Assembly: GCF_029813115.1 (NCBI RefSeq)
Contig: NZ_JAPZDS010000009.1
Span: forward strand, 124,001 to 188,000
Reading direction: 5' to 3'
DNA: 64,000 nt
Source: Aureimonas sp. SK2
Lineage (GTDB): Bacteria > Pseudomonadota > Alphaproteobacteria > Rhizobiales > Rhizobiaceae
Shown: positions 642 through 63,486 of the stretch, piece by piece
How the letters are laid out: every line of letters starts with the position of its first letter
Numbering within the stretch: the first letter of the stretch is position 1
Program-made: the position numbers and the translations under genes
Notes under the pieces: model-generated
The model's database searches: none
The model's input: the letters and a program-made list of their open reading frames with translations, nothing else
Told to the model about the DNA's origin: nothing

Positions 642-669
642 TTGCGCACGCGCCCCGGCGCCCCATGCT
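642..669 (+). promoter_or_regulatory. Class A promoter for the 697 gene
   Basis: TTGCGC (642-647), a 16-bp spacer containing CCCCGGCGCC, then CATGCT (664-669). The start codon of the next gene is 28 bp downstream. Confidence 0.5.
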
Positions 670-696
670 GGTCCTCCACCCCTGAAGGAGAGCACC

Positions 697-1002
697 ATGC
701 CCGACCCGAACTCCGATGCCATATACGCCGCCCTCGAACGCGAGTTCGGCGGCCCGATTCACGGCTGGCCGCTCCCCGACGGGAGTGTGATGTCCAGGAT
801 TCGAATCAACCCCGCACTCGCAGCCGTCGGTCTACCCTCTGCCGATGACGAATTCGCTGGGCGTTTCATGGATGAACTCCAGCACGGCCAGATCGACGAG
901 GACTTCGGCGGCTTCCTGTGGCGGTGCTGGTGCGCCGCGCTGGAGATCCCGAACGAGTTCCTCGAACGCTACGGGCGGGCGTCCGCACCTCAGGCAGCCT
1001 GA
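697..1002 (+). CDS. Hypothetical phage protein, 101 aa
   Basis: The ATG at 697 follows AAGGAG at a good distance and sits 28 bp below a class A promoter-like site. The protein is acidic and soluble with no membrane segment, and begins with a helix-like stretch (residues 5-14). The C-terminal third is rich in Trp and Cys (WRCWCAALEIP). I do not recognise a family. It is the first convincing gene of the prophage left arm and is monocistronic, the next gene having its own class A site. Confidence 0.7.
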   Translation: MPDPNSDAIYAALEREFGGPIHGWPLPDGSVMSRIRINPALAAVGLPSADDEFAGRFMDELQHGQIDEDFGGFLWRCWCAALEIPNEFLERYGRASAPQAA

Positions 1003-1032
1003 TGATTCCCGCCGGCGGATCACTCCCGTTTT

Positions 1033-1061
1033 TTGACGCCAGCCCGCCGGCGCCTCACGCT
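1033..1061 (+). promoter_or_regulatory. Class A promoter for the 1107 gene
   Basis: TTGACG (1033-1038), a 17-bp spacer with GCCGGC, then CACGCT (1056-1061). It is nearly identical to the site at 9556-9584 on the other strand, including the following sequence CTGGGGAGCGGC. Confidence 0.6.
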
Positions 1062-1106
1062 CTCAGTAGGCCGCTGGGGAGCGGCCTCCACGAGGGAGCG
1101 AAATCC

Positions 1107-1430
1107 ATGAACACCATCCAGATCTCCGACCGCGTCGCCCGCACGATCGCCGCCTTGGATTTCGGCGCGCCGGAGGCGGCCACCTCGACCGACGCGGAGC
1201 CGATGCCCGCCAGCGTCGCCCGCACGCTGGCCGCGCTGGACCACGGCGCACCCGTCGCGGCCGCCCCGGTCGACGCGGTGCCGCCCAGCGTCCGTCGGAT
1301 CGCCGCGTTGCTCGGCTGCTCGGTCGAAGCCGCCGCTTACATCGACGCCCTCGAGACCCGCGTCGCCCGGCTCGAGGAGAAGGTGTCCGAGCTGCGGTTC
1401 GACGTCCGCAAGGCCCGGAGGGCTGCGTAA
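1107..1430 (+). CDS. Hypothetical protein with internal repeat and C-terminal coiled coil, 107 aa
   Basis: The ATG at 1107 follows GAGGGAG. The N-terminal half holds two copies of a short unit, VARTIAALDFGAP (residues 8-20) and VARTLAALDHGAP (about 34-46), so it arose by internal duplication. The last 30 residues form a likely coiled coil ending in a basic tail. A dimer- or oligomer-forming regulator or scaffold would fit, but no family is recognised. Its stop codon overlaps the start of the next gene (TAATG), so the two are translationally coupled. Confidence 0.65.
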   Translation: MNTIQISDRVARTIAALDFGAPEAATSTDAEPMPASVARTLAALDHGAPVAAAPVDAVPPSVRRIAALLGCSVEAAAYIDALETRVARLEEKVSELRFDVRKARRAA

Positions 1431-1825
1431 TGGGTGGTCAGTGCGCACGAGATCGCCGAGATCAGCGGATGTTTGACGATCTATGGAAGCGGGTGTGCTT
1501 CTACCGCGATATAGAGTTCAAGAACTACTCCGAGGCTCTGGGCCTCGCGAAGCGTCGGTATGGGGAGACATGCTCGAAGGCTACGTCCCTTTGGATCGAA
1601 ACTGGAGCGGACAACACAGACGCTTTGAAGCCCTTGGTCGAAGCCAAAGCAGCATACGAACAGGCCCTCATACAGATCAACGGTGACTGGGGTCAGTACC
1701 AGACGGATACCGCGAACCTAGCTCGGTCAGCCAGATGGGGTGAGATCAGCATGGCGCAGGCCAACGCCGCACTGACCTCCATGCATGAACCTACGTTCGC
1801 AAGATGGCTTTCTTGGGCACCCTGA
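1430..1825 (+). CDS. Hypothetical protein, 131 aa
   Basis: The start ATG at 1430 shares one base with the preceding stop. The product is helix-rich with many Tyr, Trp and Ala residues and no signal peptide or membrane segment. No family recognised. Codon use is slightly less GC-biased than in its neighbours. A strong terminator at 1847-1879 ends this two-gene unit. Confidence 0.6.
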   Translation: MGGQCARDRRDQRMFDDLWKRVCFYRDIEFKNYSEALGLAKRRYGETCSKATSLWIETGADNTDALKPLVEAKAAYEQALIQINGDWGQYQTDTANLARSARWGEISMAQANAALTSMHEPTFARWLSWAP

Positions 1826-1846
1826 CCCATGCCTTCGACGACCACC

Positions 1847-1879
1847 AGCCCCGGCCACCGTGCCGGGGCTTTCGCGTTT
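1847..1879 (+). terminator. Rho-independent terminator
   Basis: A 9-bp stem AGCCCCGGC/GCCGGGGCT is followed by TTCGCGTTT. It is close in sequence to the hairpins at 591 and 9270, suggesting a shared terminator cassette. Confidence 0.75.
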
Positions 1880-1881
1880 AC

Positions 1882-1902
1882 GAGTCTCACACCACGCGAG
1901 AC
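1882..1902. repeat. Degenerate GANTC palindrome, copy 1
   Basis: GAGTCTCA, eight bases, then CGAGAC. One arm carries a GANTC site and the second arm is decayed. It lies directly after the terminator and before the metallophosphoesterase gene. A TTGACG at 1911 follows but lacks a convincing class A -10. Confidence 0.45.
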
Positions 1903-2037
1903 ACCCTGACTTGACGCCTGCCCATCCGACGCCGCACAAGGCGTGATGTTCTCGCGCACGCTCATACGCCGCCGCATCGCCTGACGGCCCCGCTCCCGGG
2001 GCCGCGCCCACGCGCACCCTGATACGAGAGCGAGACG

Positions 2038-3078: not shown

Positions 3079-3080
3079 TA

Positions 3081-3103
3081 GGAGTCTCGGGTTAGGGGAG
3101 ACT
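3081..3103. repeat. GANTC palindrome, copy 2
   Basis: GGAGTCTC, a short spacer GGGTTAGGG, then GAGACT, just after the stop of the 2038 gene. It shares the GGAGTCTCGGGTTAG sequence with the copy at 55196, over 50 kb away. Confidence 0.6.
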
Positions 3104-3212
3104 GCGGCCGGGCGTCGCGCCGCTGCTGGGGCGCGGCTCCTATCAATTCCAGCGATGGTCACGCGGTAGATACGGATGCTACGCCTTCGGTGCAGAACTC
3201 CTGAGGTTGCCC

Positions 3213-6751: not shown

Positions 6752-6795
6752 CCGCCGCGCGTTAACGGTTCGCCGGCGATGTCCGAAGGCCAGCG

Positions 6796-6824
6796 TTGAC
6801 GCCAAGTGCCGGGCCCTCCAGGTT
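6796..6824 (+). promoter_or_regulatory. Class A promoter for the 6849 gene
   Basis: TTGACG (6796-6801), a 17-bp spacer containing GCCGGGCC, then CAGGTT (6819-6824), 25 bp before the start codon. Confidence 0.5.
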
Positions 6825-7178: not shown

Positions 7179-7438
7179 TGCGTTCGGATCTCTTCGTCGA
7201 CTACGGCCTCCACGCCCTGCACGAGTGGCCGGAAGCGCAGGACGCCGCCCTCGCGCTTCTGGCGGCTCGCAGGGATGGCCGCGAGAGGCGCGAAGCCGAA
7301 GCGGGCGGGTCATCGGCACCCCCCCAACGAAGAGGAGTCTCGGACCAGCCGAGACTCCTGAAGCGACGTCGGGGACATGGGCACAGGTACCGGGCTGCGG
7401 GGAGGAGTCTTCGGTCGCCCGAGACTCGTCAGGCGTAG
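7178..7438 (+). CDS. Possible 86-aa protein, second half made of repeat sequence
   Basis: The ATG at 7178 overlaps the stop of the previous gene, so it could be translated by coupling. The first 35 residues look like an ordinary helical protein. The remainder runs through two GANTC palindromes and overlaps the 3' end of the convergent AbiEii-type gene, so the original C-terminus may have been lost when the repeats arrived. Treat the end as uncertain. Confidence 0.4.
   Translation: MRSDLFVDYGLHALHEWPEAQDAALALLAARRDGRERREAEAGGSSAPPQRRGVSDQPRLLKRRRGHGHRYRAAGRSLRSPETRQA
7333..7359. repeat. GANTC palindrome, copy 3 (perfect)
   Basis: AGGAGTCTCGG and CCGAGACTCCT are perfect 11-bp inverted arms around five bases. 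Each arm has a GANTC site. There is no T-run, so a simple terminator is unlikely. It is the best-preserved member of the family. Confidence 0.8.
7404..7427. repeat. GANTC palindrome, copy 4
   Basis: GGAGTCTTCGG, four bases, then CCGAGACTC. It sits just outside the stop codon of the AbiEii-type gene (7429). Confidence 0.65.
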
Positions 7439-8361
7439 GCCATCGGCCTCGGTGCCGGAGCCCCGAACCAGTCTTCGAGTTCGCGAGACTCCTCCTGTGC
7501 CGGGGCCGGGGAGAACGCCTGGTTCGCGAACGCCCGCACCGTCGCGACGACATACGGGAACGCCGCAGGCGCCGCGTCCACCCGCCCGGCGTCGACCAGC
7601 AACTTGATCCACGCATCCTGGTTGGCGAGCGCGTACTCACGGCTGAGGCCCGGCAGCGTGAGAGGCGTCGACGGGATGGGGCGGCAGTTGTTCGCGAAGG
7701 TCGTCTGGATGCATACCGACAGCAGCCGCATGTCGAGGTCCGCCCGTGAGAGGCAAAGGAGGTCGTAGTAGTCCTTAATCCTCGTGTTCGCGGACCCGAA
7801 CTGGACGATCGCGTGCAGCTTGTCGGCGGCCATCGCCTCCAGCGGATAGGTCAACATCTTCACGGCCGGCAGGCCCGGCAGCATGGACGGCCGCTCGACC
7901 AGACGCATGCCCGGCGACCGCTCGCCGCCGACCCAGCAGTCGACCTCGAAGTTGACGCGGGTCCGCCCGAGCCACGCGACGACGCGCACCTTCTCGCCGC
8001 CGGGCTCACCGTCCGGACGCCAGAGGGTCTTGCGGGCGCCGAACTCGAGGCGGATGCCGACACCAGCGACCTCGGCGGCGGCGCGGTCGAGGAGATCGCG
8101 CAGATCATCGAGGCGGTCGAGGTGCAGGTGGAGGTCGAGGTCCTTGGACGGACGGACCCAGTCGGAGATCCGGTCGTCGAGGAGGACGAGGGCGCTGCCC
8201 TTGAGCGCGACGGCGCCCTCGTCGGCGACGCGCCCGACGGCGGCGAGGAGCTGCTCGCGGCACAGCATGCTCAGGAAACGGTCGGGGGCAATGCCCCGGT
8301 TGCGCGATATTGCGTTGGACTTGTCCGACAGCCGTGCGCCGAGTTCGAAAGTGGTGGTCAT
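7429..8361 (-). CDS. AbiEii/AbiGii-type nucleotidyltransferase, 310 aa, without a visible AbiEi partner
   Basis: The ATG at 8361 has AGGGGAG upstream. Residues 52-76 carry the nucleotidyltransferase signature, KGSALVLLDD and then PSKDLDLHL (metal-binding D-L-D, residues 74-76). Further on, MAADKLHAIVQ and NTRIKDYYDL are the conserved helices of the AbiEii family (toxin that transfers nucleotides to RNA targets; some members are tRNA-directed). AbiEii usually pairs with an upstream winged-helix AbiEi antitoxin; here the upstream neighbour is a methyltransferase. The last 20 codons contain a palindromic repeat, which may have changed the C-terminus. Likely role: phage-exclusion or stability toxin. 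Confidence 0.8.
   Translation of the reverse strand: MTTTFELGARLSDKSNAISRNRGIAPDRFLSMLCREQLLAAVGRVADEGAVALKGSALVLLDDRISDWVRPSKDLDLHLHLDRLDDLRDLLDRAAAEVAGVGIRLEFGARKTLWRPDGEPGGEKVRVVAWLGRTRVNFEVDCWVGGERSPGMRLVERPSMLPGLPAVKMLTYPLEAMAADKLHAIVQFGSANTRIKDYYDLLCLSRADLDMRLLSVCIQTTFANNCRPIPSTPLTLPGLSREYALANQDAWIKLLVDAGRVDAAPAAFPYVVATVRAFANQAFSPAPAQEESRELEDWFGAPAPRPMAYA
7470..7492. repeat. GANTC palindrome, copy 5, inside the AbiEii-type coding sequence
   Basis: AGTCTTCG and CGAGACTCC arms lie within the last 21 codons of the minus-strand gene and encode EESRELED. The copy at 12237 also reads EESR in its host gene. Confidence 0.6.
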
Positions 8362-8390: not shown

Positions 8391-8420
8391 AGCGTGCGGG
8401 CCGGGGGAGCAAGTGACGAA
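8391..8420 (-). promoter_or_regulatory. Class A promoter for the AbiEii-type gene
   Basis: On the minus strand, TTCGTC (8420-8415), an 18-bp spacer with CCCCGGCC, then CACGCT (8396-8391), 30 bp before the ATG. The -35 is weak. Confidence 0.4.
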
Positions 8421-8431
8421 CCGCCGGCGGA

Positions 8432-9555: not shown

Positions 9556-9584
9556 AGCGTTGGGCGCCGGCGGGCTGGCGTCAA
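9556..9584 (-). promoter_or_regulatory. Class A promoter for the 9506 gene
   Basis: TTGACG (9584-9579), 17-bp spacer with GCCGGC, AACGCT (9561-9556). About 24 of the first 26 bases match the site at 1033-1061. Confidence 0.6.
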
Positions 9585-9627
9585 ATCCGGACGAAATCCG
9601 CCGGCAGACCCGCCGACCCCGCGAACA

Positions 9628-10273: not shown

Positions 10274-10302
10274 AGCGTTGTGGGAGGCGACGCGAGGGAC
10301 AA
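10274..10302 (-). promoter_or_regulatory. Class A promoter for the 10245 gene, without the CCGG core
   Basis: TTGTCC (10302-10297), 17 bp, AACGCT (10279-10274). It keeps -35, spacing and -10 but not the GCCGGC in the spacer. This suggests the hexamers are the promoter and GCCGGC is an added regulatory feature. Confidence 0.5.
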
Positions 10303-12386: not shown

Positions 12387-13516
12387 GCGGCGACGCCTTC
12401 ATAGGTCCGGCGGGACTTCAGCCACTCGTAGCCGGCATAAGCGAGGGCGGCGACACCGACCAGCCCGGCCACGGCGACAAGACCGGAGGCCAACACCTCG
12501 GCGGCGTTCGCCAGCGACGGGATCCCGGCGACCTTCCCGGCGAGGCCGCCCACCTGCGCGGCGGCGGCTTCGAGCTGCTCCTTGGCCTGCCCGAGCGTGA
12601 CGGCGGCCGCCGTGGCGGTCGCGACCTTGCCGACGTTCGGCAGCTCGGCGACGGGCGTGGAGGTGAGGTTCTCGCGCTCGCCCTGAAGGTGCTTCTCAAG
12701 GTGGCTCCAGGTCTCCGGCCCGACGACACCGTCGGCCTTCGCCTTGTGCGCCTTTTGGTAGGCAACCACTGCGCGCTTGACGTTCGGGCCGAAGTCGCCG
12801 TCCACCTTGAGCCGGGCGCCGGTCCTGTTGAGGAGTCGCTGGAGTTCGCGGACGCGGGCGCCCGACGAACCCATGCGCAGCATCCCGGCCGACACCTCCG
12901 GGGTGTCGGCGCCGTACTTCTCGGCGGCGGCCGCGAGCTTGGTGTCGTACTTGTTCTGGCGGTATGCCGGGCCGTTGTAGCCGCGCGCGAAGGCGGTCCA
13001 GTCGCCGCGCTGGAGTTCGTCGACCAAGCCGAAGGCGGCGCAGTAGTCGAAGATCAGCTCGAGCTGCCCTTCGAGGCCCGCCGTCGCCTTCGCGAGGATG
13101 TCCTGCGGGGACTTGAGGCCGAACACGCGCCAGTGCGACCCCAGCACCTGCCCGACGCCCCACGAGCATGCGGCCGTCGCGGCGTCCTCGTCGATCTCGC
13201 AGGCGCGCCGCCAGAGATCGTACCGGGCCTGCTGCGACTTCGGATTCTTGATGCCGCCCTTGGCCTCGGTCTTCGACGAGGCGAGGCCCTGTCGGACGGC
13301 GCGGTCTCGCTGGTCCCCGGACAGGAAGCGATAGAAAAGGTGGCCCTCGAAACGGCAGAGCGGCCAGAGGAGCTTCCGGCCGAAGCGGTCGGTCACCTCC
13401 GTGAAGGCCTTCCCGCCGGACTCGACGTCGACCACCGCGCGGACGTGCGCGACGGGGACGGAGTGCCGCTCGGCGAGGCGGTCGACGATGGCCGCGAGGC
13501 TGGACGGCGCGCTCAC
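12383..13516 (-). CDS. Endolysin: N-acetylmuramidase (DUF3380 type) with peptidoglycan-binding domain and C-terminal membrane segment, 377 aa
   Basis: GTG at 13516 overlaps the stop of the XRE gene (GTGA). The N-terminal domain (1-180) matches the DUF3380 muramidase family: a VESGG catalytic Glu (residue 32), WGVGQVLG and a FARGYNGPAY end. Residues about 205-272 are a PG_binding_1 domain (GDFGPNVKRAVVAYQ, DGVVGPETW). Residues 345-370 form a transmembrane helix before a basic tail, so the enzyme may be membrane-tethered or self-released, easing the need for a classical holin. It cleaves the glycan strand during lysis. Confidence 0.88.
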   Translation of the reverse strand: MSAPSSLAAIVDRLAERHSVPVAHVRAVVDVESGGKAFTEVTDRFGRKLLWPLCRFEGHLFYRFLSGDQRDRAVRQGLASSKTEAKGGIKNPKSQQARYDLWRRACEIDEDAATAACSWGVGQVLGSHWRVFGLKSPQDILAKATAGLEGQLELIFDYCAAFGLVDELQRGDWTAFARGYNGPAYRQNKYDTKLAAAAEKYGADTPEVSAGMLRMGSSGARVRELQRLLNRTGARLKVDGDFGPNVKRAVVAYQKAHKAKADGVVGPETWSHLEKHLQGERENLTSTPVAELPNVGKVATATAAAVTLGQAKEQLEAAAAQVGGLAGKVAGIPSLANAAEVLASGLVAVAGLVGVAALAYAGYEWLKSRRTYEGVAA

Positions 13517-13770
13517 GAGATCACCAGCCTTGCGCGCAGCCCGATGGCCTCGGCGATCGCGTGCAACCTGTTGATCCCAAAATTGTGGTCGTCCCGCATG
13601 ATCGACGCAATGTCTGCCGCGCGGATCGACGTGTGCCGCCGGGCGATGTCGGCCGTCGCGATCTTCTCGCGCTGGATCTTCTCCCTGATCGCGGCGGCCA
13701 GCACCTCGCGGTCCCGGAGCGCTTGCCTCGGCGTGTACTTGTCCGGGATGGTGGGCGTCGTCTTGGACAT
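13513..13770 (-). CDS. XRE/HTH_37-type DNA-binding protein, 85 aa
   Basis: The helix-turn-helix lies at about residues 38-75: ATADIARRHTSIRAADIASI and then NFGINRLHAIAEAIGL, the pattern of the HTH_37 group found in HigA-like antitoxins and phage regulators. It is the first gene of the lysis operon, 55 bp below a class B box, and its stop overlaps the muramidase start. An autoregulator of lysis timing is plausible. No toxin gene is beside it. Confidence 0.75.
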   Translation of the reverse strand: MSKTTPTIPDKYTPRQALRDREVLAAAIREKIQREKIATADIARRHTSIRAADIASIMRDDHNFGINRLHAIAEAIGLRARLVIS

Positions 13771-13824
13771 GGGCGGTGGCGGCTCGGCGTGCGGGGATCG
13801 TTCGAGGATTCAGGCGGTTGCGCC

Positions 13825-13838
13825 GTGCAACTTTCCAG
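13825..13838 (-). promoter_or_regulatory. Class B box upstream of the lysis operon
   Basis: Minus strand CTGGAAAGTTGCAC, identical to the copy at 62545-62558 over 14 bases. It is 55 bp upstream of the XRE start. Confidence 0.6.
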
Positions 13839-13858: not shown

Positions 13859-13886
13859 AGGAGTCACGCTGCGAGCGAGACTCCTT
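13859..13886. repeat. GANTC palindrome, copy 8, across the 3' end of the 13864 gene
   Basis: AGGAGTCACG and CGAGACTCCTT arms. The repeat supplies the last codons and stop of the metallophosphoesterase gene and lies just upstream of the lysis class B box. Confidence 0.55.
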
Positions 13887-15600
13887 CTTGGCCACGGGCC
13901 TCGGCCCACGCCCGGCCGTCGGGATGCATGCACAGGAGCGCGCGCTTGCCGGACGGGTAGATGACGACGTGCCCGTTCGCCCACGCGCCGGGTCCGCGAT
14001 CGTTGTAGCCCTGCGACAGCGAGGCGGAGACGCCCGCCACGTAGACGCCCTCGACGATCTTGGGTGAGTGAGTGTGGGCGGACACCACCTTGTCGCCGAG
14101 GCGCCGAAACTGGTTCGGCGACCCCCGGCTGCCGGAGATGCCGATGTCTCCGTGAAGCCCGCACTCCACGCCGGCTATCCGGAGGCCGCGCCCGTAGCCC
14201 ACGAAGTCGACGACGTTGTCGTACCCGCCGACGGCGCCCATCGCGTGCCGGATCGGGTTGAAGGTGTCGTCCCGTCGCCGAATTGCGCGCAGCCAAGCGG
14301 CGTTCAGCTCGGCGTGGTAGTAGGCGTTTTCCTCGTCCTCGGCGGCCTTCAGATCGCGCAACCAGCGTGTGAGGGCATCGTCGTGATTGCTCTCCACCTG
14401 ATGCGTCTGGCACCACGGGCGCGAGGTGGCAACGAGGAAGGCGGCCGCCGCGTGGACTTCCTCCTCCACGTTCGTCGTCCCGGCGGCGAGCATGCGCGCC
14501 CTGCTGTGGACCGAACCCCGGTCGTGGTGGTTCCGGCGACGGAAGTCGAGGACGTCGTGCCGGACCTGGTGCGCTGGCCGCAGGAGGTCGATGAGGCAGT
14601 CGCTCGTCACCTGACGGTTGGTGCGGACGTCGATGCCCCACGTCGCCAGCGCGATGTTGGGGTCCATGGCCGCTTGATGGTCGTCCCCGCAGACGAGGGC
14701 GGCGACCGCGTGGCCGTAGGTGACCACCCCGCTGTCCACGCGGGCGGTCAGGTCTTGGAAGCTGCCGTCGTCCTCGGCCGCGAGTTCGCGGATGAAGACC
14801 TCGCCATCGACGTCGATCTCGATGAGGAGCGCGCCGTAGGTGTGATGAAAGAGCGCCCGGCGACCGGATGCCCGAGGCGTGTAACTCGGCAGCGTGCAGC
14901 ACCCGGTCGACTGGACGTAGCGCGGCGGGCGGCCGGGCATCCGGGGGATCGTTTCCAAGGCCCTGCGCGCGTGCGGGATAACGACGTGACCGCCGCCGTT
15001 GACGGTGTGCCAGCCCGCGAGCGGGTTGGCCGTCGTCGGCAGGATGTTCGCGTCGCCGACGATCAGGAGGTCCGGCCCGAGCTGGACGCGGCCGAACTCT
15101 AGGTAAGGCTGGAGTTCGGCGGCATAGACGCCCGTCGCGACCGCGTGGTCCTCGAACAAACCCAACTGGTAAGTGAAACCCCCGACTGCGAGCTGCGCGT
15201 CGAGGTGGGCGGCGTAGGCGGTGAGGTTGCGCCAGAAGCCCTCGTGGACGGGTGTGTCGTCCTGGGCGGCGGTCAGGATCAGGCGGCTGACCACGCCGCG
15301 CGGTACGTCGACCGAGCGCGTGGCGACCTTGCTGATGCGGATGGGCTTCCGCTTCCCCTCGGCCGCCGGCTCCGCCTTCGGAGCCTCCGGCACGACCTCC
15401 GGCGCCGTCTTACCCCGCCGCGCCTGCCGCAGCTCGTTGTCCGACGGCAACCCCCGGATCGCCCGAACGGCTTCGGACGCCCGGCCGTACGACCACCCCA
15501 GCGCGGCCGCGATCTGCCTGAGCGGGGTGCCCGCCGCGTGGAGCGGCTGGGCGGCTGCCTGATCCTCGAGGGATCCTCTGATGAATGAGGCGGCGGGCAT
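13864..15600 (-). CDS. HTH-metallophosphoesterase phage protein, 578 aa
   Basis: ATG at 15600 overlaps the preceding stop (TGATG). Residues 15-60 hold a helix-turn-helix-like segment, LGWSYGRASEAVRAIRGLPS, also present in the upstream gene. After a linker, a large domain carries calcineurin-type motifs: GDDHQ, SNHDD (in place of GNHD) and AHTHSP (in place of GHTH). The size and layout recall large phage metallophosphoesterases such as T5 A1-type DNA-transfer nucleases; I cannot confirm that. A DNA nuclease or phosphatase with a DNA-binding N-terminus is the working call. Confidence 0.65.
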   Translation of the reverse strand: MPAASFIRGSLEDQAAAQPLHAAGTPLRQIAAALGWSYGRASEAVRAIRGLPSDNELRQARRGKTAPEVVPEAPKAEPAAEGKRKPIRISKVATRSVDVPRGVVSRLILTAAQDDTPVHEGFWRNLTAYAAHLDAQLAVGGFTYQLGLFEDHAVATGVYAAELQPYLEFGRVQLGPDLLIVGDANILPTTANPLAGWHTVNGGGHVVIPHARRALETIPRMPGRPPRYVQSTGCCTLPSYTPRASGRRALFHHTYGALLIEIDVDGEVFIRELAAEDDGSFQDLTARVDSGVVTYGHAVAALVCGDDHQAAMDPNIALATWGIDVRTNRQVTSDCLIDLLRPAHQVRHDVLDFRRRNHHDRGSVHSRARMLAAGTTNVEEEVHAAAAFLVATSRPWCQTHQVESNHDDALTRWLRDLKAAEDEENAYYHAELNAAWLRAIRRRDDTFNPIRHAMGAVGGYDNVVDFVGYGRGLRIAGVECGLHGDIGISGSRGSPNQFRRLGDKVVSAHTHSPKIVEGVYVAGVSASLSQGYNDRGPGAWANGHVVIYPSGKRALLCMHPDGRAWAEARGQEGVSLAA

Positions 15601-15854
15601 CAGGAGATCACCCCGGCGGCGCGCAGGTGCTGGCGGAGGCTCTCGGTGACGCGGGCGCGCTTGACGCGGGCGTCGTCCCGGCGGCGGCGTCCGGCGACCG
15701 CGTCGCTGTCGAGGCCCTTGATGGCCCGTGCCGCCTCGGACACCCGTCCGTACGGCCAGCCGAGGAGGCGCATGCACTCCCGATACGTGTGTCCGGCGAC
15801 GAGGAGCGGCGACAGCTCCCTCTGATCCCCGACCGATCCCAGCTCTCTTCTCAT
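15600..15854 (-). CDS. Small HTH-like protein, 84 aa, paralogous to the N-terminus of the next gene
   Basis: ATG at 15854 with GGAGAA upstream. Residues 22-50, LGWPYGRVSEAARAIKGLDS, repeat the motif at the N-terminus of the 578-aa neighbour (16 of 20 positions identical), so the pair arose by duplication. The C-terminus is strongly basic, consistent with DNA binding. It is translationally coupled to the metallophosphoesterase. Confidence 0.65.
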   Translation of the reverse strand: MRRELGSVGDQRELSPLLVAGHTYRECMRLLGWPYGRVSEAARAIKGLDSDAVAGRRRRDDARVKRARVTESLRQHLRAAGVIS

Positions 15855-15907: not shown

Positions 15908-15935
15908 AGCGTTGTCGCCGGCGGAGACCGCGTAA
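15908..15935 (-). promoter_or_regulatory. Class A promoter for the 15854 gene
   Basis: TTACGC (15935-15930), 16-bp spacer with GCCGGC, AACGCT (15913-15908). Confidence 0.45.
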
Positions 15936-16040
15936 AGGCAAATCGCAACAGCGACTTAGAGGGAAATCACGCCAAACGAGGGGACGCGATATGAGGTGGT
16001 CGGCGTCGGTCAACGGAGTTTGTCGATCGCGTGTGCGTGA

Positions 16041-17646: not shown

Positions 17647-20001
17647 ATGACCGCTACGCTTCTTCAGCTCGCCTCTAGCCACTCCGTTGGCTTCGTCCTC
17701 ACGTCGCTCGTCATCTGCCTCGTCGCCGGATGGCTGCTCGGCAAGCTGATGGGTCGCGTTGCCGATGCGAAGCCCGCGCGCAGGCCGCAATGGCTCGCAG
17801 GGACCGCGATCGTAGCCGGGCTCGGGGTCTGGACCACCCACTTCATCGCCATGCTCGGCTACCGTCCGGACATGATGTTGTCGTACGACGGGTTGACCAC
17901 GACCGTGTCGGCTGTCGTCGCTGTCCTGGCGGTTGGTGTTCCGTTAGCCGTCACGCCTCTCTTGGCTTCCTGGCGGTGGCGTGCCGTTCTGGGAGCCGTC
18001 GCCGGCCTCGGTGTCGGCGCGATGCACTACTCGGGCATGATGGCCCTCGAAGGGTGCCTCCAGACCCATTCGCCCGTTGCGGCGGGGCTGGCTGCCCTCA
18101 TCGGTTCCTTCTTACTCGCGCTGGCCTCCGGGCTGCCCTCGCGGATTGCCACTCCCCGGGTGGTCTGCGGCCTGTTCACGCTCGCGGTCTGCGGCGCCCA
18201 CTTCACAGGGATTGCCGGGACGAACCTCGAGACGATCGCCGGGCAGGGAATCCTCGCCCACGAGAACGTCACGCTCAGCGTCATCACCGCCGTCGGCGCC
18301 GCCGTCCTCTTCCTCGGCGCCTTCCTGACGATTCTGACGGCGCAGCGCTTCGAGGCGCAGGAACGGGCGCACTCGGCCGTCCTCTCGACGGCGCTCCACA
18401 ACATGTCGAACGGCCTGGCCTTCATCGACGCCGAGCAACGCCTCGGCCTCTTCAACAGGCGGTTCCTCGAGATCTGCAAGCTGCCGACGGACGGACTGCG
18501 TGCCGGCATGAGCCGCCTCGAGTTCATCGACGCGCTCGACGGAGCCAATGGCTGGGACGCCGAACGACGCGCCAAGATCGAGAAGCTCATCGCCCACTGG
18601 TCCACGATGGTCGAGGAGGAGGCGGTCGAACACGTCACGGCAGACGGCCGGACGATCGAAGTGACGTGCCGCCACGTCGAGGCCGGCGGCGTCGTCCTGA
18701 CGTTCGACGACGTGACGAAGGATCGCGCGGCGCAGAGCCGGATCGCCGAACTCGCCTTTCTTGACCCGCTGACCAAGCTCGCCAACCGCCGTGCGTTCAA
18801 CGCCCGGATGGAACGCGACTTCCACCCCAAGCAGCGCTTCAAGCTTCTCCTTATCGACCTCGACCGCTTCAAGCCCGTGAACGACACCTACGGCCATGGC
18901 GTCGGCGATCTGCTCTTGGTGCAGGTCGCCGAACGGCTGGCCGCCATCGCCGGAACCGACGGAGCCGCCGCGCGCCTCGGGGGCGACGAGTTCGCCGTGC
19001 TCGCCTACGGCGATCTCTATCAGGCGACCGATGTCGCAGAGCGTATCTTAGAAGCTATGAGTCGCCCATTCGAGATCGGGGACATCAAGGTCAGCATCGG
19101 ATGCAGCATCGGCATGTGCTGCACGGACGACGCCAAGGATCCGGCCGAGCTCATGCAGCTTTCGGACATCGCTCTGTACGAAGCCAAGCGCGGCGGGCGT
19201 GCACGAGCAAGCTGCTACACTCGTGGTATGTTCGAAGCGGTTTCCGAGCGCGTCCAGCTCGAGACCGACATGCGGACAGCGATCGAGCGGGGCGAGATAC
19301 ATCTTGCCTACCAGCCCGTCCTCGCGCTCGCCGACGACCGCGTCATCGGCTACGAGGCCCTCATCCGGTGGGACCATCCGCAACTCGGGTCCGTCTCGCC
19401 CGCCCGGTTCATCCCGCTGGCGGAGGAGACCGGGCAGATCGTCGAGATCGGAGCGTGGGTGCTGCGTGAAGCGTGCCGACAGGCCGCGGAGCTTGCCGAT
19501 GACGCCTACGTCGCGGTGAACGTCTCGCCCGTCCAGTTCCGCTCCCCACTGCTGCTATCCCACTTGACGCAGGCACTCAGCTCGAGCGGGCTGCCCGCCC
19601 GCCGCCTCGAGATCGAATTGACGGAAACGGCGATCGTCGAGGACGGGCCAAAGATCGCTGAGATGCTCGGGGCGATCCGGCGCCTCGGGGTGTCGGTTGC
19701 CATGGACGACTTCGGGACGGGGTACTCCTCGCTCTCGCACCTTCGCGACTTCCCGCTCGACCGCATCAAGGTGGATCGCTCGTTCGTCGCGACGGCGGAG
19801 ACGGACCGCCACTCGATGGCGGTGCTGGAGGGCATCACCCACATCGCCAAGAAGCTCGACATCGCGATCCTGGCCGAGGGCGTCGAGACGACGTCGCAGT
19901 TGGAGTTGCTCCGTGACATCGGATGCGACGCGATCCAGGGGTATCTGGTGGGGCGGCCCGAGCGGATGTCGCAGGACGACAACTTACGCCTGTCTGCCTG
20001 A
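17647..20001 (+). CDS. MHYT-PAS-GGDEF-EAL membrane sensor for cyclic di-GMP, 784 aa
   Basis: Residues 10-225 form an MHYT sensor: paired transmembrane helices with H-Y/H-F motifs (THFIAML, AMHYSGMMA, AHFTGIAG), thought to bind metal and sense a gas or redox signal. A PAS-like domain (about 235-345) follows, then GGDEF (LGGDEFAVL intact, with DPLTKLANR) and EAL (YEALIRW, ELTE, DDFGTGYSS, IKVDRSF, AEGVET all present). Both synthesis and hydrolysis of c-di-GMP are possible. The start is ATG 17647 or GTG 17641; neither has a clear ribosome-binding site. It is host-like signalling cargo between lysis and tail genes. Confidence 0.92.
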   Translation: MTATLLQLASSHSVGFVLTSLVICLVAGWLLGKLMGRVADAKPARRPQWLAGTAIVAGLGVWTTHFIAMLGYRPDMMLSYDGLTTTVSAVVAVLAVGVPLAVTPLLASWRWRAVLGAVAGLGVGAMHYSGMMALEGCLQTHSPVAAGLAALIGSFLLALASGLPSRIATPRVVCGLFTLAVCGAHFTGIAGTNLETIAGQGILAHENVTLSVITAVGAAVLFLGAFLTILTAQRFEAQERAHSAVLSTALHNMSNGLAFIDAEQRLGLFNRRFLEICKLPTDGLRAGMSRLEFIDALDGANGWDAERRAKIEKLIAHWSTMVEEEAVEHVTADGRTIEVTCRHVEAGGVVLTFDDVTKDRAAQSRIAELAFLDPLTKLANRRAFNARMERDFHPKQRFKLLLIDLDRFKPVNDTYGHGVGDLLLVQVAERLAAIAGTDGAAARLGGDEFAVLAYGDLYQATDVAERILEAMSRPFEIGDIKVSIGCSIGMCCTDDAKDPAELMQLSDIALYEAKRGGRARASCYTRGMFEAVSERVQLETDMRTAIERGEIHLAYQPVLALADDRVIGYEALIRWDHPQLGSVSPARFIPLAEETGQIVEIGAWVLREACRQAAELADDAYVAVNVSPVQFRSPLLLSHLTQALSSSGLPARRLEIELTETAIVEDGPKIAEMLGAIRRLGVSVAMDDFGTGYSSLSHLRDFPLDRIKVDRSFVATAETDRHSMAVLEGITHIAKKLDIAILAEGVETTSQLELLRDIGCDAIQGYLVGRPERMSQDDNLRLSA

Positions 20002-26558: not shown

Positions 26559-27074
26559 TTAGCGGTGGGTGTCGGGCCGCCCCTCGGTCGACGTGACCGC
26601 GAGGGCGTACGAAAGGGTGAGGACGCCGTAGACGGCATCGCCGCCCCCAGCACCGAAGCCGGGGGACGTGGTCGTCAGCCGCCATTCGGCGACGGTGAAG
26701 GGCAGGAAGTCCGGCCCCGCGAGCGCGGCCTCGACCTCGACCGACGCGTCGTCGAGCGCCGCCTCGAGGTCGTCCGTCGTGCCGACGTCGACGACCAGCT
26801 CGACCTCGACGACGATGTTCCGGCGAACCCGACGCGGGCGGTTGCCGACATGATCCGACGGCGCGGTCTCGGAGACGACGACCACCGCCATGGGCAAGTC
26901 GTGCGCCTGGAAGTCCCGCAGCTTGCGCGACCCGGCATGCACGCGGCCGCCGACCGACGGCACGGCCGCCTTCAAGCGGTCGATGACGGCGGTGCGGACG
27001 AGGGTGCGAAGGTGAGGCAAGGGCGGCCGGGGTCGGGTGTCTGGTCTCCGGATGGTGACCTTGCCCCGGCGCAA
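26559..27074 (-). CDS. Tail terminator protein (gpU-like), up to 171 aa
   Basis: The only starts in frame near the beginning are TTG codons at 27074 and 27020. The latter gives LPHLRTLVRTAVIDRLKAAV, which looks like the natural first helix, so the true start may be 27020. The domain has the terminator pattern: helix, FQAHDLPMAVVVVSE strand, IVVEVELVVDV strand, central helix with many acidic residues, and a final Y-x-L strand. It would cap the tail tube and join the head. A class B box lies at 27069-27082. Confidence 0.65.
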   Translation of the reverse strand: MRRGKVTIRRPDTRPRPPLPHLRTLVRTAVIDRLKAAVPSVGGRVHAGSRKLRDFQAHDLPMAVVVVSETAPSDHVGNRPRRVRRNIVVEVELVVDVGTTDDLEAALDDASVEVEAALAGPDFLPFTVAEWRLTTTSPGFGAGGGDAVYGVLTLSYALAVTSTEGRPDTHR

Positions 27075-27082
27075 CTTTCGAC
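27069..27082 (-). promoter_or_regulatory. Class B box upstream of the tail terminator gene
   Basis: Minus strand GTCGAAAGTTGCGC, identical to the copy at 31473-31486 upstream of the protease gene. If the box is a promoter, the 27074 start cannot be used, which supports 27020. Confidence 0.55.
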
Positions 27083-31456: not shown

Positions 31457-31472
31457 AGTCAGCCGCCGCCCG

Positions 31473-31486
31473 GCGCAACTTTCGAC
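31473..31486 (-). promoter_or_regulatory. Class B box upstream of the protease operon
   Basis: Minus strand GTCGAAAGTTGCGC, 81 bp before the protease ATG. Transcription from it would have to pass the terminator at 31427-31456. Confidence 0.5.
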
Positions 31487-32042: not shown

Positions 32043-32072
32043 AGCGTCAGGCGCCGGCGGGCAGGGACCTAA
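32043..32072 (-). promoter_or_regulatory. Class A promoter for the 32017 gene
   Basis: TTAGGT (32072-32067), 18-bp spacer with GCCGGC, GACGCT (32048-32043). Confidence 0.45.
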
Positions 32073-41778: not shown

Positions 41779-41805
41779 GGCATCGTCCTCGTCTTGAGGA
41801 TCAAG

Positions 41806-41834
41806 CCTGCTTGCCGGCGGAGGCTGGCGCAACG
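41806..41834 (-). promoter_or_regulatory. Class A promoter for the 41778 operon
   Basis: TTGCGC (41834-41829), 17-bp spacer with GCCGGC, CAGGCT (41811-41806). Confidence 0.55.
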
Positions 41835-42345: not shown

Positions 42346-42374
42346 AGCGTGGTTGCCGGCGAAGCCGAGTGCAA
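42346..42374 (-). promoter_or_regulatory. Class A promoter for the 42316 gene
   Basis: TTGCAC (42374-42369), 17-bp spacer with GCCGGC, CACGCT (42351-42346). The GGTTGCCGGCGA block and CACGCTT are shared with 49687-49715. Confidence 0.6.
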
Positions 42375-43727: not shown

Positions 43728-43791
43728 GACGCAGGAGGCGAAGATTTCCTTTTCAGTTGAACTCTTTAACCTCCCGACGGCTTAGGGCCAG

Positions 43792-44181
43792 ATGGCGCAA
43801 TCCTTCAACCCAAGCCAACTTGCCGTTCTTGTCGTCGAGGACGAGCCGCTGCTCCTGATGGACGCGATCGACCTCATCGAGGAAGCCGGGTTCGTCGCCT
43901 ACGGAGCGTCGAACGCGGACGAGGCGATCCGCATGCTGGAGCGGCATTCGGACATCCGGGTCCTTTTCACAGACGTCGACATGCCGGGGTCGATGGACGG
44001 CCTGAAGCTGGCGCGCGCGGTGCGCGACCGATGGCCCCCGGTGTCGATCATCGTGGCGTCCGGCCACGTGCGGGTCACTAAGGAGGACATGCCCGAGAAC
44101 GGGCTGTTCTTCGCGAAGCCATATCCGCCGAAGAGCGTGATCGCCGCGCTGAACCGGATTGCAGAGCAGGTGACCCGCTGA
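43792..44181 (+). CDS. Single-domain response regulator, 129 aa
   Basis: ATG at 43792. Acidic pocket VVEDEP (E16-D17), phospho-acceptor Asp61 in LFTDVDMPG, ASGH and the conserved Lys in FAKPYPP. There is no output domain, so it would act through protein contacts, as HWE-linked regulators (FixJ-less, CheY-like) often do. It is followed by a repeat and a terminator. Confidence 0.9.
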   Translation: MAQSFNPSQLAVLVVEDEPLLLMDAIDLIEEAGFVAYGASNADEAIRMLERHSDIRVLFTDVDMPGSMDGLKLARAVRDRWPPVSIIVASGHVRVTKEDMPENGLFFAKPYPPKSVIAALNRIAEQVTR

Positions 44182-49686: not shown

Positions 49687-49715
49687 AGCGTGGTTGCCGG
49701 CGAGGCGGGCGTCAA
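49687..49715 (-). promoter_or_regulatory. Class A promoter for the 49659 operon
   Basis: TTGACG (49715-49710), 17-bp spacer with GCCGGC, CACGCT (49692-49687). One of the best matches in the family. Confidence 0.65.
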
Positions 49716-52075: not shown

Positions 52076-53017
52076 ATGAAGAGCAAGGCACACAGCGCCA
52101 TCGAGGCCGCAGCCGAGGCAGCGGGGGCCACGAGCGTCACGCAGGACCACCACACGACAGTGGTCGGCTACAAGGGCAGCGAGATCCGGATCAAGATGGA
52201 CATGTCGCCGAGGGGCGGCTGGTCGATCGCGGTCGACGGACGGGACGAGGGCGCCAAGAAGGCGCCGTCGGCAGCCTTCAAGGCCGCCGTCAAACTGGTG
52301 GACGACCGCCTCGCGTCCGAGGCGGCTCACGTCGAGGCGGTGTACGCCGTCGCGGAAGTGGCAGGGGCCGAGATCGAGTCCCTCGAGGTCGACCGGGTCG
52401 CGCTGTCCTACAAGGGCCACACGGTCACGGCCGTTCGCGAGGACAAGCCGTCCACCGTCTCCGTCCGGTACGCGTGGACCGTGAGCATCGACGGAACGCC
52501 GAAGTGGATCTGCGCGAGCGTCGCGACGGTGCTCAAGGGCGCGATCGACAGCATCGACGAACAGGTCCCAGTGGCCACCCTGTACAACCCCCAGCCGGAC
52601 AACCGCGTGGCCAGCCAATTCCAGCCCGTCTCCGAGCTGCGGGCGCTCCTCAAGACCATGCCGGTCGCCCTTCACGACGAAGGTCCCGTAGAGGGATGGG
52701 GCACGACAACCTTCCTCGACATCGACATCGCGGAAGGGTCCGCGCGGCTGGGCAGCGAGTACCTCAGGGACAGCGTTGCCTGGCTCACCGCGCACGGGTA
52801 CGTGCACCGCATTCGCTTGGCCGACGGCACGTCCGGCGTCCGTCTCGCCGCTGCCCTGGACGTGGCCGAGGCCCGGCTCGAGGACGTGGTCGCGGCGTTC
52901 GAGGAGGAGAGCGGATGGGGCGGCCTCGCCAGCGAGCAGGCCAAGGCCACCTTTCGGGAGATCTGCCAGCCAGTTCTCGAGCTGTCGGGTTCAGAACCCG
53001 AGAAGGCGGCCGCATGA
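52076..53017 (+). CDS. Hypothetical protein with repeated domain, 313 aa
   Basis: ATG at 52076 follows GAGGGAGACACGACG. Two related segments of about 65 residues occur in the first half (SVTQDHHTTVVGYKGSEIRI... and ESLEVDRVALSYKGHTVTAV...), each a beta hairpin with YKG followed by a W(S/T)(I/V) strand and a helix (AAFKAAVKLVDD, VATVLKGAIDSID). The C-terminal part (200-300) looks like a small winged-helix-like module ending acidic. No family recognised. First gene of a coupled three-gene operon. Confidence 0.6.
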   Translation: MKSKAHSAIEAAAEAAGATSVTQDHHTTVVGYKGSEIRIKMDMSPRGGWSIAVDGRDEGAKKAPSAAFKAAVKLVDDRLASEAAHVEAVYAVAEVAGAEIESLEVDRVALSYKGHTVTAVREDKPSTVSVRYAWTVSIDGTPKWICASVATVLKGAIDSIDEQVPVATLYNPQPDNRVASQFQPVSELRALLKTMPVALHDEGPVEGWGTTTFLDIDIAEGSARLGSEYLRDSVAWLTAHGYVHRIRLADGTSGVRLAAALDVAEARLEDVVAAFEEESGWGGLASEQAKATFREICQPVLELSGSEPEKAAA

Positions 53018-53235
53018 CCGCCGCCGCCCGCTACAATGCTATCCGCCGACGCCTGCGTCTCACGCAGGCGGAGGTAGCCGAGGCGACGGGCTACAGCCTC
53101 GGCTACGTCTCGAAATGGGGCCACGCAGGCCAGACGGCCAAGGACCCGCCCGATGCCGCCGTCGACCGCCTCGCGCAACTCCTGCGGGAGCGCGGGGCGA
53201 AGGATCTCGAGTTGCTGGAAGGAGAGGCCGCATGA
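53014..53235 (+). CDS. XRE-type HTH protein, 73 aa
   Basis: ATG at 53014 overlaps the previous stop (ATGA). Residues 5-45 form a Cro/CI-like helix-turn-helix: YNAIRRRLRLTQAEVAEATG, YSLGYVSKWG. The rest is a short C-terminal helix. It is the size of a Cro-like regulator and is a candidate for controlling the palindromes upstream of this operon. Confidence 0.75.
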   Translation: MTAAARYNAIRRRLRLTQAEVAEATGYSLGYVSKWGHAGQTAKDPPDAAVDRLAQLLRERGAKDLELLEGEAA

Positions 53236-60531: not shown

Positions 60532-60560
60532 ATGCTGGGTGCCGGCGGAGCGGGGCGCAA
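60532..60560 (-). promoter_or_regulatory. Class A promoter for the 60411 operon
   Basis: TTGCGC (60560-60555), 17-bp spacer with GCCGGC, CAGCAT (60537-60532). A second CCGCCGGCGG motif stands upstream. Confidence 0.55.
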
Positions 60561-60599
60561 ACCGCCGGCGGGCGGATCGCGCCAAATCCGTTGACCGGA

Positions 60600-62082: not shown

Positions 62083-62085
62083 GCG

Positions 62086-62283
62086 TCAGCCCTCCCGCGT
62101 CTGGCGGGGGCGCAGCATCCGGTCGCGGCGCCGCGCGGCGAATCCCGGCCGGGGCGCGAGCACGATGCCGAGGCGGGTGAGGATCGCCTGGAGTTCGGCG
62201 GCGAGACGCTCGCGCTCGGCGCGGTCCTCAGCGGCGGCGATCTGGCCGGGGGACGGCGCGGGCTTCTCTGGCGTGTCGGTCAT
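62086..62283 (-). CDS. Small basic protein, 65 aa
   Basis: ATG at 62283 (MTDTPEKPAPSPGQIAAAED). Helical with basic C-terminus (FAARRRDRMLRPRQTREG). It sits three bases upstream of the 62082 start region, in the same operon. No family recognised. Confidence 0.55.
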   Translation of the reverse strand: MTDTPEKPAPSPGQIAAAEDRAERERLAAELQAILTRLGIVLAPRPGFAARRRDRMLRPRQTREG

Positions 62284-62286
62284 GGA

Positions 62287-62505
62287 TCAGGCCTCCCGGG
62301 GCGCGGCGACGGGGTGGCAGGAACCGACGGCCTGTCCGCCGCCGGCGGGGCGCAGGGCCGTCGCGATGGGCTGGGCGGCTGCTTCGCATGCGGCGGCGGA
62401 GGCGAAGCCGCTGACGGCAAGCGTCGTGCATGCGGGCGGCGGGCCGCCGGGCGTCGGCGTGGGGCAGACAGACAGGGCGAGCGTGAAGAGGGTCGAGATG
62501 AACAT
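62287..62505 (-). CDS. Secreted Cys-rich small protein, 72 aa
   Basis: ATG at 62505 follows CCGGAGGCCTCC. A short signal-like hydrophobic start (MFISTLFTLALSVCPTPTPG) precedes a mature part with four Cys. It is preceded by a class B box. The size would suit a periplasmic or lysis-related peptide; no family recognised. Confidence 0.5.
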   Translation of the reverse strand: MFISTLFTLALSVCPTPTPGGPPPACTTLAVSGFASAAACEAAAQPIATALRPAGGGQAVGSCHPVAAPREA

Positions 62506-62544
62506 GGAGGCCTCCGGTCGGTCCTCCATTGCGCCTCGCCGGCG

Positions 62545-62558
62545 GTGCAACTTTCCAG
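62545..62558 (-). promoter_or_regulatory. Class B box upstream of the 62505 gene
   Basis: Minus strand CTGGAAAGTTGCAC, identical to the lysis-operon copy at 13825. Confidence 0.55.
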
Positions 62559-62619
62559 CCACGCGGTGAGCCGGGGCAACGCTCACCGCAAGGCCGGAGT
62601 AATGCCCGTAAACCGCCCC

Positions 62620-62979
62620 CTACGCCCCCGACGGACCTTCAGAGGCCGCCCAGTAGCGGCGCTCTGCGTCAGCGCGACGGCGACGGGCCTTGGCCTCGTC
62701 CGGCAGCGTGTAGAGGGACAGCCGCTCGAAGGATTCAGCCGGGTCGAATCCCTGCTTCTTCAGGACTCCGTAGGCGGTGAGCATGAGCCGCTGGTACGAG
62801 GCCGCCTCAGGGCTGTCGGGCTTCCGTTTCGCGGCGCCCGCCATCTTCCGGACGGCGACTGCCAACGACTGGATGACGGCCCGCGTTTCCGGTGCGCCGC
62901 GCGGCGCGTCGGCTGCCGCCTTGGCCTTCAGCCGGGCGCGGTAGCGTCGCTGCTCCATCGCATGTTTCGACGTCGTCAT
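62620..62979 (-). CDS. Basic hypothetical protein, 119 aa
   Basis: ATG at 62979 (MTTSKHAMEQRRYRARLKAK). The basic N-terminus and helical body (AVIQSLAVAVRKMAGAAKRK, YQRLMLTAYGVLKKQGFDPA) suggest nucleic-acid binding. It shares an R/K-A-R-A-K-like motif with the 63431 gene. Second gene of the rightmost class A operon. No family recognised. Confidence 0.55.
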   Translation of the reverse strand: MTTSKHAMEQRRYRARLKAKAAADAPRGAPETRAVIQSLAVAVRKMAGAAKRKPDSPEAASYQRLMLTAYGVLKKQGFDPAESFERLSLYTLPDEAKARRRRADAERRYWAASEGPSGA

Positions 62980-63035
62980 CTTCCCGGCCCTCCCTCTCAC
63001 CTCGTGAGTATGGGCGGCGGGGGTGCAAGGGACGA

Positions 63036-63431
63036 TCAGGCCGACGGGGTCGTCAGTCGCTCCGCCGTAAGCACCTTCGGCCGGAGCGTCCCGGTCTTCG
63101 CCCGGATGCGAGCCGTCGAGGCAACGCCGGGGCGACCGGGGAAAGCCTTATGCACGGCACGCTGAATTTCATCCGCCCCCGGCCCGTCGACGGCCAACAG
63201 AAGGATCGCCGCGTCGGCCAGCGCCTCTCGGATCGCGGCGTCGGATGCCTCCGGCCGTCCGGCGGCCTTCGCCTCCTTGGCCCTCGCGCGCTGCCGCCTC
63301 TTGCTCTCCCGGTCGTACGCCGTCCTGTCGGCTGGCGACAGTTCTCGCACCGTCGGCTTTGCCCCCGCCTTCAGCGCCTTGTAGAGGGCCGCCAGCGCCT
63401 CGGTCTGCGGGTCCTTCGTCGTCTCGGTCAT
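63036..63431 (-). CDS. Basic hypothetical protein, 131 aa
   Basis: ATG at 63431 follows CAGGGAGGACGAC. Residues 38-60 (TAYDRESKRRQRARAKEAKA) are strongly basic, and the rest is helical with DEIQRAVHKAFPGR. A DNA-binding regulator or replication accessory is possible. Class A promoter at 63458-63486 with a palindrome just upstream. No family recognised. Confidence 0.55.
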   Translation of the reverse strand: MTETTKDPQTEALAALYKALKAGAKPTVRELSPADRTAYDRESKRRQRARAKEAKAAGRPEASDAAIREALADAAILLLAVDGPGADEIQRAVHKAFPGRPGVASTARIRAKTGTLRPKVLTAERLTTPSA

Positions 63432-63457
63432 GTCGTCCTCCCTGTCGGCACATCTTC

Positions 63458-63486
63458 AGCGTGGGGCGCCGGCAGGCAAAACGCAA
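63458..63486 (-). promoter_or_regulatory. Class A promoter for the 63431 operon
   Basis: TTGCGT (63486-63481), 17-bp spacer with GCCGGC, CACGCT (63463-63458). Confidence 0.6.

Follow-up and report, generated by a model that had tools for sequence, protein, structure and literature searches.

A putative promoter family with a phased GCCGGC box in an Aureimonas prophage and in divergent phages

Several described systems resemble a promoter-like element that recurs within 64,000 nucleotides of Aureimonas sp. SK2 DNA (the window, i.e. positions 124001-188000 of contig C89, NZ_JAPZDS010000009.1, in a 4.56-Mb genome). The element combines -35 and -10 hexamers with a palindromic box, GCCGGC. The conserved inverted repeats of phage phiC31 are likewise palindromic repressor sites at many phage promoters, although their sequence and host are different. 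At MerR promoters an activator is bound in a spacer of 19-20 bp; a protein in the spacer between -35 and -10 is also what we propose here, but the spacers measure 17 bp and boxes are found upstream of the -35 as well. The stoperators of temperate cluster A mycobacteriophages are described, in the passages of PMC9283540 considered here, as many short sites in promoters and short intergenic gaps, and our prophage, which has an integrase and attachment (att) sites, contains 29 intergenic copies of GCCGGC. However, stoperators are asymmetric 13-mers that are also thought to block elongation (same passages of PMC9283540), whereas here a palindromic core is phased to the -35 and the -10.

The remaining comparison concerns a protein. 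According to the relevant passages of PMC3556154, the RNA-polymerase-associated pre-early protein A1 of phage T5 co-immunoprecipitates with RNA polymerase, A1-bound polymerase shows altered transcription patterns, and a change of promoter specificity was proposed, i.e. a phage protein would change the promoter choice of the host polymerase; the N-terminus of the phiCbK homologue of A1 resembles the DNA-binding domain of TyrR. A homologous, A1-like gene is found here in a temperate phage and behind a box promoter, whereas those passages of PMC3556154 name no DNA box for A1. Among the titles listed by our searches of open-licence PubMed Central text, none concerns such an element.

The promoter-like elements of the prophage

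The elements probably form a phage-lineage-specific promoter family; what the sequences establish is their presence, phasing, enrichment, recurrence in divergent phages and absence from the intergenic DNA of a host sample. The members in the window are as follows (the spacer sequence stands between the -35 and the -10, and 8 or 9 denotes the spacer position at which GCCGGC starts; distances are from the end of the -10 to the start codon).

641..669, + strand: box promoter, TTTGCG / CCCGGC in the spacer / CATGCT, 27 bp to gene 697
632..637: additional GCCGGC at offset -10 from TTG, immediately ahead of the 641 promoter
1033..1061, + strand: box promoter, TTGACG / GCCGGC at 8 / CACGCT, 45 bp to gene 1107, stem-loop leader
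1011..1016: additional GCCGGC at offset -22, ahead of the 1033 promoter
6796..6824, + strand: box promoter, TTGACG / degenerate GCCGGG / CAGGTT, 24 bp to gene 6849
6772..6777: intact GCCGGC at offset -24, ahead of the 6796 promoter
8391..8419, - strand: box promoter, degenerate -35 / CCCGGC / CACGCT, 29 bp to the AbiEii-family gene 7429-8361
8423..8428: intact GCCGGC a few bp ahead of the 8391 promoter
9556..9584, - strand: box promoter, TTGACG / GCCGGC at 8 / AACGCT, 49 bp to gene 9506, stem-loop leader
9600..9605: additional GCCGGC at offset -21, ahead of the 9556 promoter
10274..10302, - strand: promoter without an intact box (GCCTCC), TTGTCC / AACGCT, 28 bp to gene 10245
15908..15936, - strand: box promoter, TTTACG / GCCGGC at 9 / AACGCT, 53 bp to ATG 15854, stem-loop leader
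32043..32071, - strand: box promoter, TAGGTC / GCCGGC at 8 / GACGCT, 25 bp to gene 32017 of the structural block
41804..41832, - strand: box promoter, TTGCGC / GCCGGC at 9 / CAGGCT, 25 bp to gene 41778
42346..42374, - strand: box promoter, TTGCAC / GCCGGC at 9 / CACGCT, 29 bp to gene 42316
49687..49715, - strand: box promoter, TTGACG / GCCGGC at 9 / CACGCT, 27 bp to gene 49659
60532..60560, - strand: box promoter, TTGCGC / GCCGGC at 9 / CAGCAT, 120 bp to gene 60411
60564..60569: additional GCCGGC at offset -9, immediately ahead of the -35 in the 60532 promoter
63458..63486, - strand: box promoter, TTGCGT / GCCGGC at 8 / CACGCT, 26 bp to gene 63431
63007..63035, - strand: added weaker member, TCGTCC / CATACT, without GCCGGC, 27 bp to gene 62979
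64237 in window numbering (237 of the adjoining stretch L002), + strand: added weaker member without GCCGGC

All 13 copies listed in a preliminary description of this DNA exist, and two of them shift by 1-2 bp: the copy given at 642 is better placed at 641-669 with 17-bp spacing (TTTGCG; alternatively TTGCGC with 16), and the one given at 41806 lies at 41804-41832. The consensus is TTGACGCCnGCcycGCCGGCgnCnACGCT. As had been described, every copy is oriented toward the next gene and has a -10 with A at position 2 and T at position 6 (NACGCT in nine of the 13); a -35 with TTG at 17-bp spacing is present in nine, or in ten if the 641 copy is taken at 16. Compared with a sigma70 promoter, the elements have a TTGACA-like -35 at 16-18 bp and no TATAAT-like -10. 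CCGG occurs in 12 of 13 spacers, the number claimed, and the 10274 copy, which lacks GCCGGC, indeed keeps both hexamers. The fixed position of GCCGGC at spacer position 8 (1033, 9556, 32043 and 63458) or 9 (15908, 41804, 42346, 49687 and 60532) also stands, but it applies to 9/13 copies and not to the seven 'exactly spaced' ones first counted. Six of the 13 elements have a second GCCGGC upstream of the -35, and this upstream box is intact in all three copies whose spacer box is degenerate (641, 6796 and 8391).

In nine elements 24-29 bp separate the end of the -10 from the start codon; the gap is longer in the other four, i.e. 45 (1033), 49 (9556), 53 (15908, with a corrected start) and 120 bp (60532). 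Folding energies, uncorrected for length, are -13.5 to -21.1 kcal/mol for the leaders of 45-53 nt and for that of 64237 (49 nt), -1.8 to -11.7 for the short leaders and -65.2 kcal/mol for the 120-nt one. An RNA-level element was set aside as a reading: stable stem-loops are confined to the longer leaders, and what is conserved precedes the expected transcription start.

Nearly the whole window is one prophage, since it is marked by a 46-bp tRNA-Pro repeat and a neighbouring integrase. The prophage is 71.3 kb in size and inserted in tRNA-Pro, with attR beyond the window end.

194..239, + strand: attL, the 46-bp 3' part of tRNA-Pro, with an exact repeat at L002:7409-7454 (attR)
L002:6095-7393: integrase, adjoining attR

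Terminase gpA, a muramidase and a minor tail protein among the products are consistent with a prophage; Pfam or PHROGs searches covered a subset of its proteins. Among the best 20 of 542 matches, no phage record exceeds 33% identity to the terminase; three short IMG/VR contigs reach 43-50%. Genes were called with a codon-model caller, and some of the start codons are wrong; the start of the 15600-15773 gene was corrected by hand to 15854, and other starts are likely for the genes called at 2431 and 9044 in the related prophage G493 (see below).

The motif was also recovered without the coordinates of the preliminary description, by de novo expectation maximization on upstream regions. With the start context included it was second best after the Shine-Dalgarno/ATG motif; with this context trimmed it was the best, with a log-likelihood ratio of 144 vs 89-99 in four shuffled sets, which were run with fewer starts and iterations. 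Ten of the 13 sites are correctly located by the best model, the exceptions being 15908, 32043 and 41804. A relaxed pattern, TT-N11/12-GCCGGC-N5/4-A-N3-T, occurs seven times in the 52 prophage upstream regions, while 1000 dinucleotide shuffles gave a mean of 0.014 and a maximum of 1, none reaching 7. In the whole 71-kb prophage there are eight hits, all of them intergenic.

The motif is not equally common in the host. The host sample consisted of 189,571 bp in 11 stretches (L001, L003-L010, L012 and the post-prophage part of L002), drawn from 20 stretches with the nine smallest left out. Here the relaxed pattern was found once and never between genes, and 116 host upstream regions contain none. 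In the whole host genome, TTG-N11-GCCGGC-N5-ACGCT with at most one mismatch has six matches, i.e. three true prophage sites, one elsewhere in the prophage and two outside it. A matrix built from the 13 elements returns them as its 13 top hits, which is partly circular; independent support comes from the de novo search, the shuffles and the leave-one-out scores, which for the 12 correctly aligned sites range from 3.7 to 28.6. At a score of at least 12 the prophage has 16 hits and the host sample five; the host rate would predict 1.9 for the prophage. The box itself follows the same tendency: the 29 intergenic copies in the prophage correspond to 2.58/kb vs 0.70/kb in genes, and the intergenic to genic density ratio is 3.64 in the prophage and 0.66 in the host sample.

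GCCGGC is mildly scarce prophage-wide (observed/expected 0.66). This scarcity was not used as evidence of a restriction site, since CCGCGG, GGGCCC and CCCGGG are scarcer.

Phasing of the box and recurrence in divergent phages

The position of the box was examined relative to TTG-N16/18-NANNNT pairs. The 52 intergenic GCCGGC of three phages gave 28 pairings, 14 of which lie at +13/+14 and six at -8 to -11, while 51 boxes in the host control gave three pairings that were scattered; the host was represented by ten of the above stretches in this test and by eight for the later phages. With six offsets preset, phages outside the offset-setting had 7/12 GCCGGC pairings (p = 5e-5) and 10/17 GCCGAC/GTCGGC pairings (p = 1e-6) at these offsets, where the p values assume independent pairings and a few pairings share one TTG or box (G520 29854; G521 810/823). 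We note that this is the fair test, and that it scores offset +12, with 3/12 GCCGGC pairings, as a miss. The inclusion of +12 followed the G520 and G521 data, and the resulting seven-offset set is therefore post hoc; it holds 30 of 38 pairings, or 25 of 33 without G201, which was found via the motif and in which two sites are thus circular. Control hexamers in the seven-offset set reached 2/14 and 0/11 (host excluded). Among 13 variant boxes, GCCGAC takes six of seven spacer places and GTCGGC five of six upstream places (Fisher p = 0.03). In other words, the arrangement around the -35 is inverted.

A search of related prophages, as had been suggested for this motif, found box promoters in divergent phages. 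The design recurs in G493, G201, G520, G521, G522 and G524 (54-67% GC), with the box at +12 to +14 from TTG or at -11 to -8 upstream of the -35, and sometimes as GCCGAC/GTCGGC. It is shared despite protein divergence (identities of 40-44% for the A1-like protein and 24-34% for TerL). G493 holds a syntenic prophage, with 61% GC over the 80 kb covered, in which 19 of 87 called proteins were matched at E 1e-3; the -10s of its box promoters are CATCAT, CACCAT, CATGCT or TACGCT, and those of the relatives are often CATCAT, CACCAT or CAGCAT. The promoters orthologous to 63458 keep the box in G493 and have it as GCCGAC in G520.

The relatives were reached in several ways. An exact motif scan of IMG/VR gave 56 and 8 stretches, mostly with single hits, which we took for chance; locus L118, with two matrix hits, belongs to the contig G201. 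Three pattern hits each, with at most two mismatches, were found in G201 and G205, among ten records searched. The proteins of G201 are 40% (A1-like), 35% (AbiEii) and 24-27% (tail, portal and terminase) identical to those of the prophage. Among 397 genomes of the order, the A1-like protein had matches in six, one of them that of the window and two others G493 and G254, and an A1-based alignment scan of 20 loci added G520, G521, G522, G523, G524 and G525. The terminase-guided search led to distant prophages without these promoters: a further nine regions with a gpA terminase, in all 386 kb and in part host DNA, had one regular-expression hit, without a start site, and four matrix hits (15.3-17.0) that are unplaced relative to genes.

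GCCGGC is missing from the stretches of G524 (L210/L211, 40 kb; 21.0 expected) and G523 (L212, 20 kb; 11.5 expected), as if under restriction pressure. In G524 phased GCCGAC/GTCGGC stands in its place, while G523 has no phased box, neither GCCGGC nor a variant.

Candidate readers of the box and other explanations

The box element is absent from the intergenic host sample and fixed in the relatives, so GC adaptation is insufficient and a protein probably reads the box. Judging from the sequence comparisons, we consider it rather probable that the elements are promoters whose box is bound by a sequence-specific, phage-encoded protein. The preliminary description had suggested a phage-wide early regulon with a protein reading the spacer. 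The phage-wide part is supported and the protein part is probable, but 'early' is too narrow, since copies precede the A1/lysis operon (15908), pre-terminase genes (41804, 42346) and a structural-block gene (32043). The proteins considered as readers, with one further small protein, are listed below.

13864..15600, - strand: A1-like protein (T5 A1 homologue) with an N-terminal helix-turn-helix (HTH)-like part, candidate box reader
13513..13770, - strand: HTH_37-like protein of 85 aa, a rival candidate (Pfam E 1.2e-5, slightly below the cut-off)
53014..53235, + strand: small HTH protein, rival candidate, with weak matches to phage repressor/regulator families (E 1e-5)
63036..63431, - strand: small basic protein, in four of the nine compared phages, its gene divergent from a Rep-like gene

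The A1-like protein is our first candidate because T5 A1 is reported to be RNA-polymerase-associated and transcription-altering. It is homologous over the A1 core, with about 40% identity over about 80% to proteins annotated as T5 A1-like, A1 or DNA transfer protein (best 20 of 1124 matches). Its AlphaFold model has a mean pLDDT of 36.6, too low for a fold search, and only residues ~11-50 are well modelled, as helices. In single-linkage groups at E 1e-4 it is the only non-structural group present in all nine phages, which counts little, because seven of the nine were found by way of this protein. A box promoter stands ahead of the A1-like gene or operon in five of the nine, i.e. the window's prophage, G493 (with an imperfect GCCGGT), G520, G521 and G522; in the window the 15908 promoter precedes a gene for an 84-aa protein and then the A1-like gene. 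The 84-aa protein (15600-15854, - strand), encoded just before the A1-like one, resembles the N-terminal part of the latter (49% over residues 9-63).

On this analysis the A1-like protein is the most likely single reader, a tentative choice that is still more likely wrong than right. The mechanism we would suggest is as follows. Host RNA polymerase would read the sigma70-like hexamers, a fair -35 (TTG...) and a poor -10 (NACGCT, or CAnnAT in relatives). The box, with GCCGGC as its core, GCCGAC as the variant that prevails in the spacer and GTCGGC as the one that prevails upstream, would serve at one or both of two fixed places, in the spacer (+12 to +14) or upstream (-11 to -8). The A1-like protein, through its N-terminal HTH, would help the host polymerase to use promoters with weak -10s, including one before its own gene or operon (5/9 phages). 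That a variable HTH of this factor reads GCCGGC/GCCGAC on either side of the -35, enabling very poor -10s, is an equally tentative suggestion.

A number of observations weigh against this explanation as a whole. Fourteen of the 29 intergenic prophage boxes lie away from these promoters, and the sites at 10274, 63007 and 64237 have no intact box. In 14 of the 20 loci of the A1-based scan there is no such promoter in the stretch seen; none was found with the A1-like genes of G254 and of two plasmids that resemble phages, an A1-like protein without any phased box is encoded in G525, and the box is mostly or wholly variant in G522 and G524. The nearest IMG/VR terminase relatives (43-50%) showed no such promoter in the late-gene stretches covered. 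Moreover, the A1-like protein was itself the query that led to seven of the nine phages under comparison, so that its presence in all nine is largely ascertainment; G201 and the window's prophage are free of this, and these two have AbiEii and three small proteins in common as well.

The alternative that survives best, a possible though not a likely one, overlaps with our explanation: the boxes may be immunity operators, at which a prophage repressor covers the -35 in the lysogen and silences dispersed units in a stoperator-like manner. The palindromic core, the many copies in a prophage and the overlap with the -35 and spacer are in line with this, as is the fact that the box variants differ among phages. 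The repressor could be the HTH_37 protein, the protein of 53014-53235 or one not recognised. The former is present in seven of the nine phages, but it is encoded within the A1/lysis operon, and the box-positive G201 yielded no homologue; the latter weakly matches repressor/regulator families, but groups with no other phage at E 1e-4 (a weak G201 match has E 0.02). Poor -10s, on the other hand, are better suited to activation.

We regard it as improbable that the element is read by a host factor or an alternative sigma factor of which the phage lineage makes use. The protein comparison revealed no small regulator common to all box-positive phages, which would fit such a factor, but the host sample has no such intergenic sites and the strict genome scan has only two matches outside the prophage. 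GcrA, a sigma70 co-activator of this bacterial class, was considered as a reader and rejected: the genome has five PF07750 hits (E up to 10), none of them on contig C89.

It is most improbable that these are ordinary GC-adapted sigma70 promoters with a spacer GC-rich by chance and no separate reader, the second option of the preliminary description: the -35/-10 positions and the 17-bp spacing are sigma70-like, but in phages of 54-64% GC the box stands at fixed offsets in two places, one of them outside the spacer, the upstream box is intact where the spacer box is degenerate, control GC hexamers are unphased and the 116 host upstream regions lack the pattern, and GC adaptation alone was rejected on these grounds.

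Other features of the prophage and implications

A second recurrent upstream element, GAAAGTTGCRCCG, is found before late genes at 13823-13835, 27067-27079, 31471-31483 and 62543-62555 (- strand), three copies being exact and one having a mismatch. Counted as a raw pattern with two mismatches allowed, it occurs in the window about as often as chance predicts (7 vs 6.3). Elements like GAATCTTGCAGCC precede some orthologous genes in G493 and G524.

A perfect palindrome, GTCGGACATGTCCGAC, lies at 63493-63508, upstream of the promoter of the 63036 gene, and also before the G493 orthologue. No member of the 63036 family turned up in the 40 kb of G524 that was covered, and its AlphaFold model has a mean pLDDT of 54.5, again too low for a fold search. 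Repeats seen by eye at 63900-64200 and L002:315-2240 lie between divergent promoters, next to a gene with weak similarity to Rep3 (Pfam E 0.029); several relatives have other repeats at the corresponding place, which looks like an iteron-type origin. Three consecutive genes at L002:2771-3776, whose products group with one G493 protein, are likely a tandem family.

Signalling genes at 17647-20001, 32481-33368 and 42642-44181 (+ strand) encode MHYT-GGDEF-EAL and PAS-GGDEF proteins, an HWE kinase and a response regulator. They are on the strand opposite to the late genes, and the matrix hits include no box promoter for them.

The promoter family provides a defined regulon for a phage lineage, one relative of which (G201) could be found from promoter DNA alone. 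It also offers a testable hypothesis for the function of T5 A1-like proteins outside T5, which is only suggested in the passages of PMC3556154 considered here. A box that is usable in the spacer or upstream of the -35 is a clean test case for the action of regulators around the -35, and if the A1-like protein is indeed its reader, the A1 family would gain a defined cis-element.

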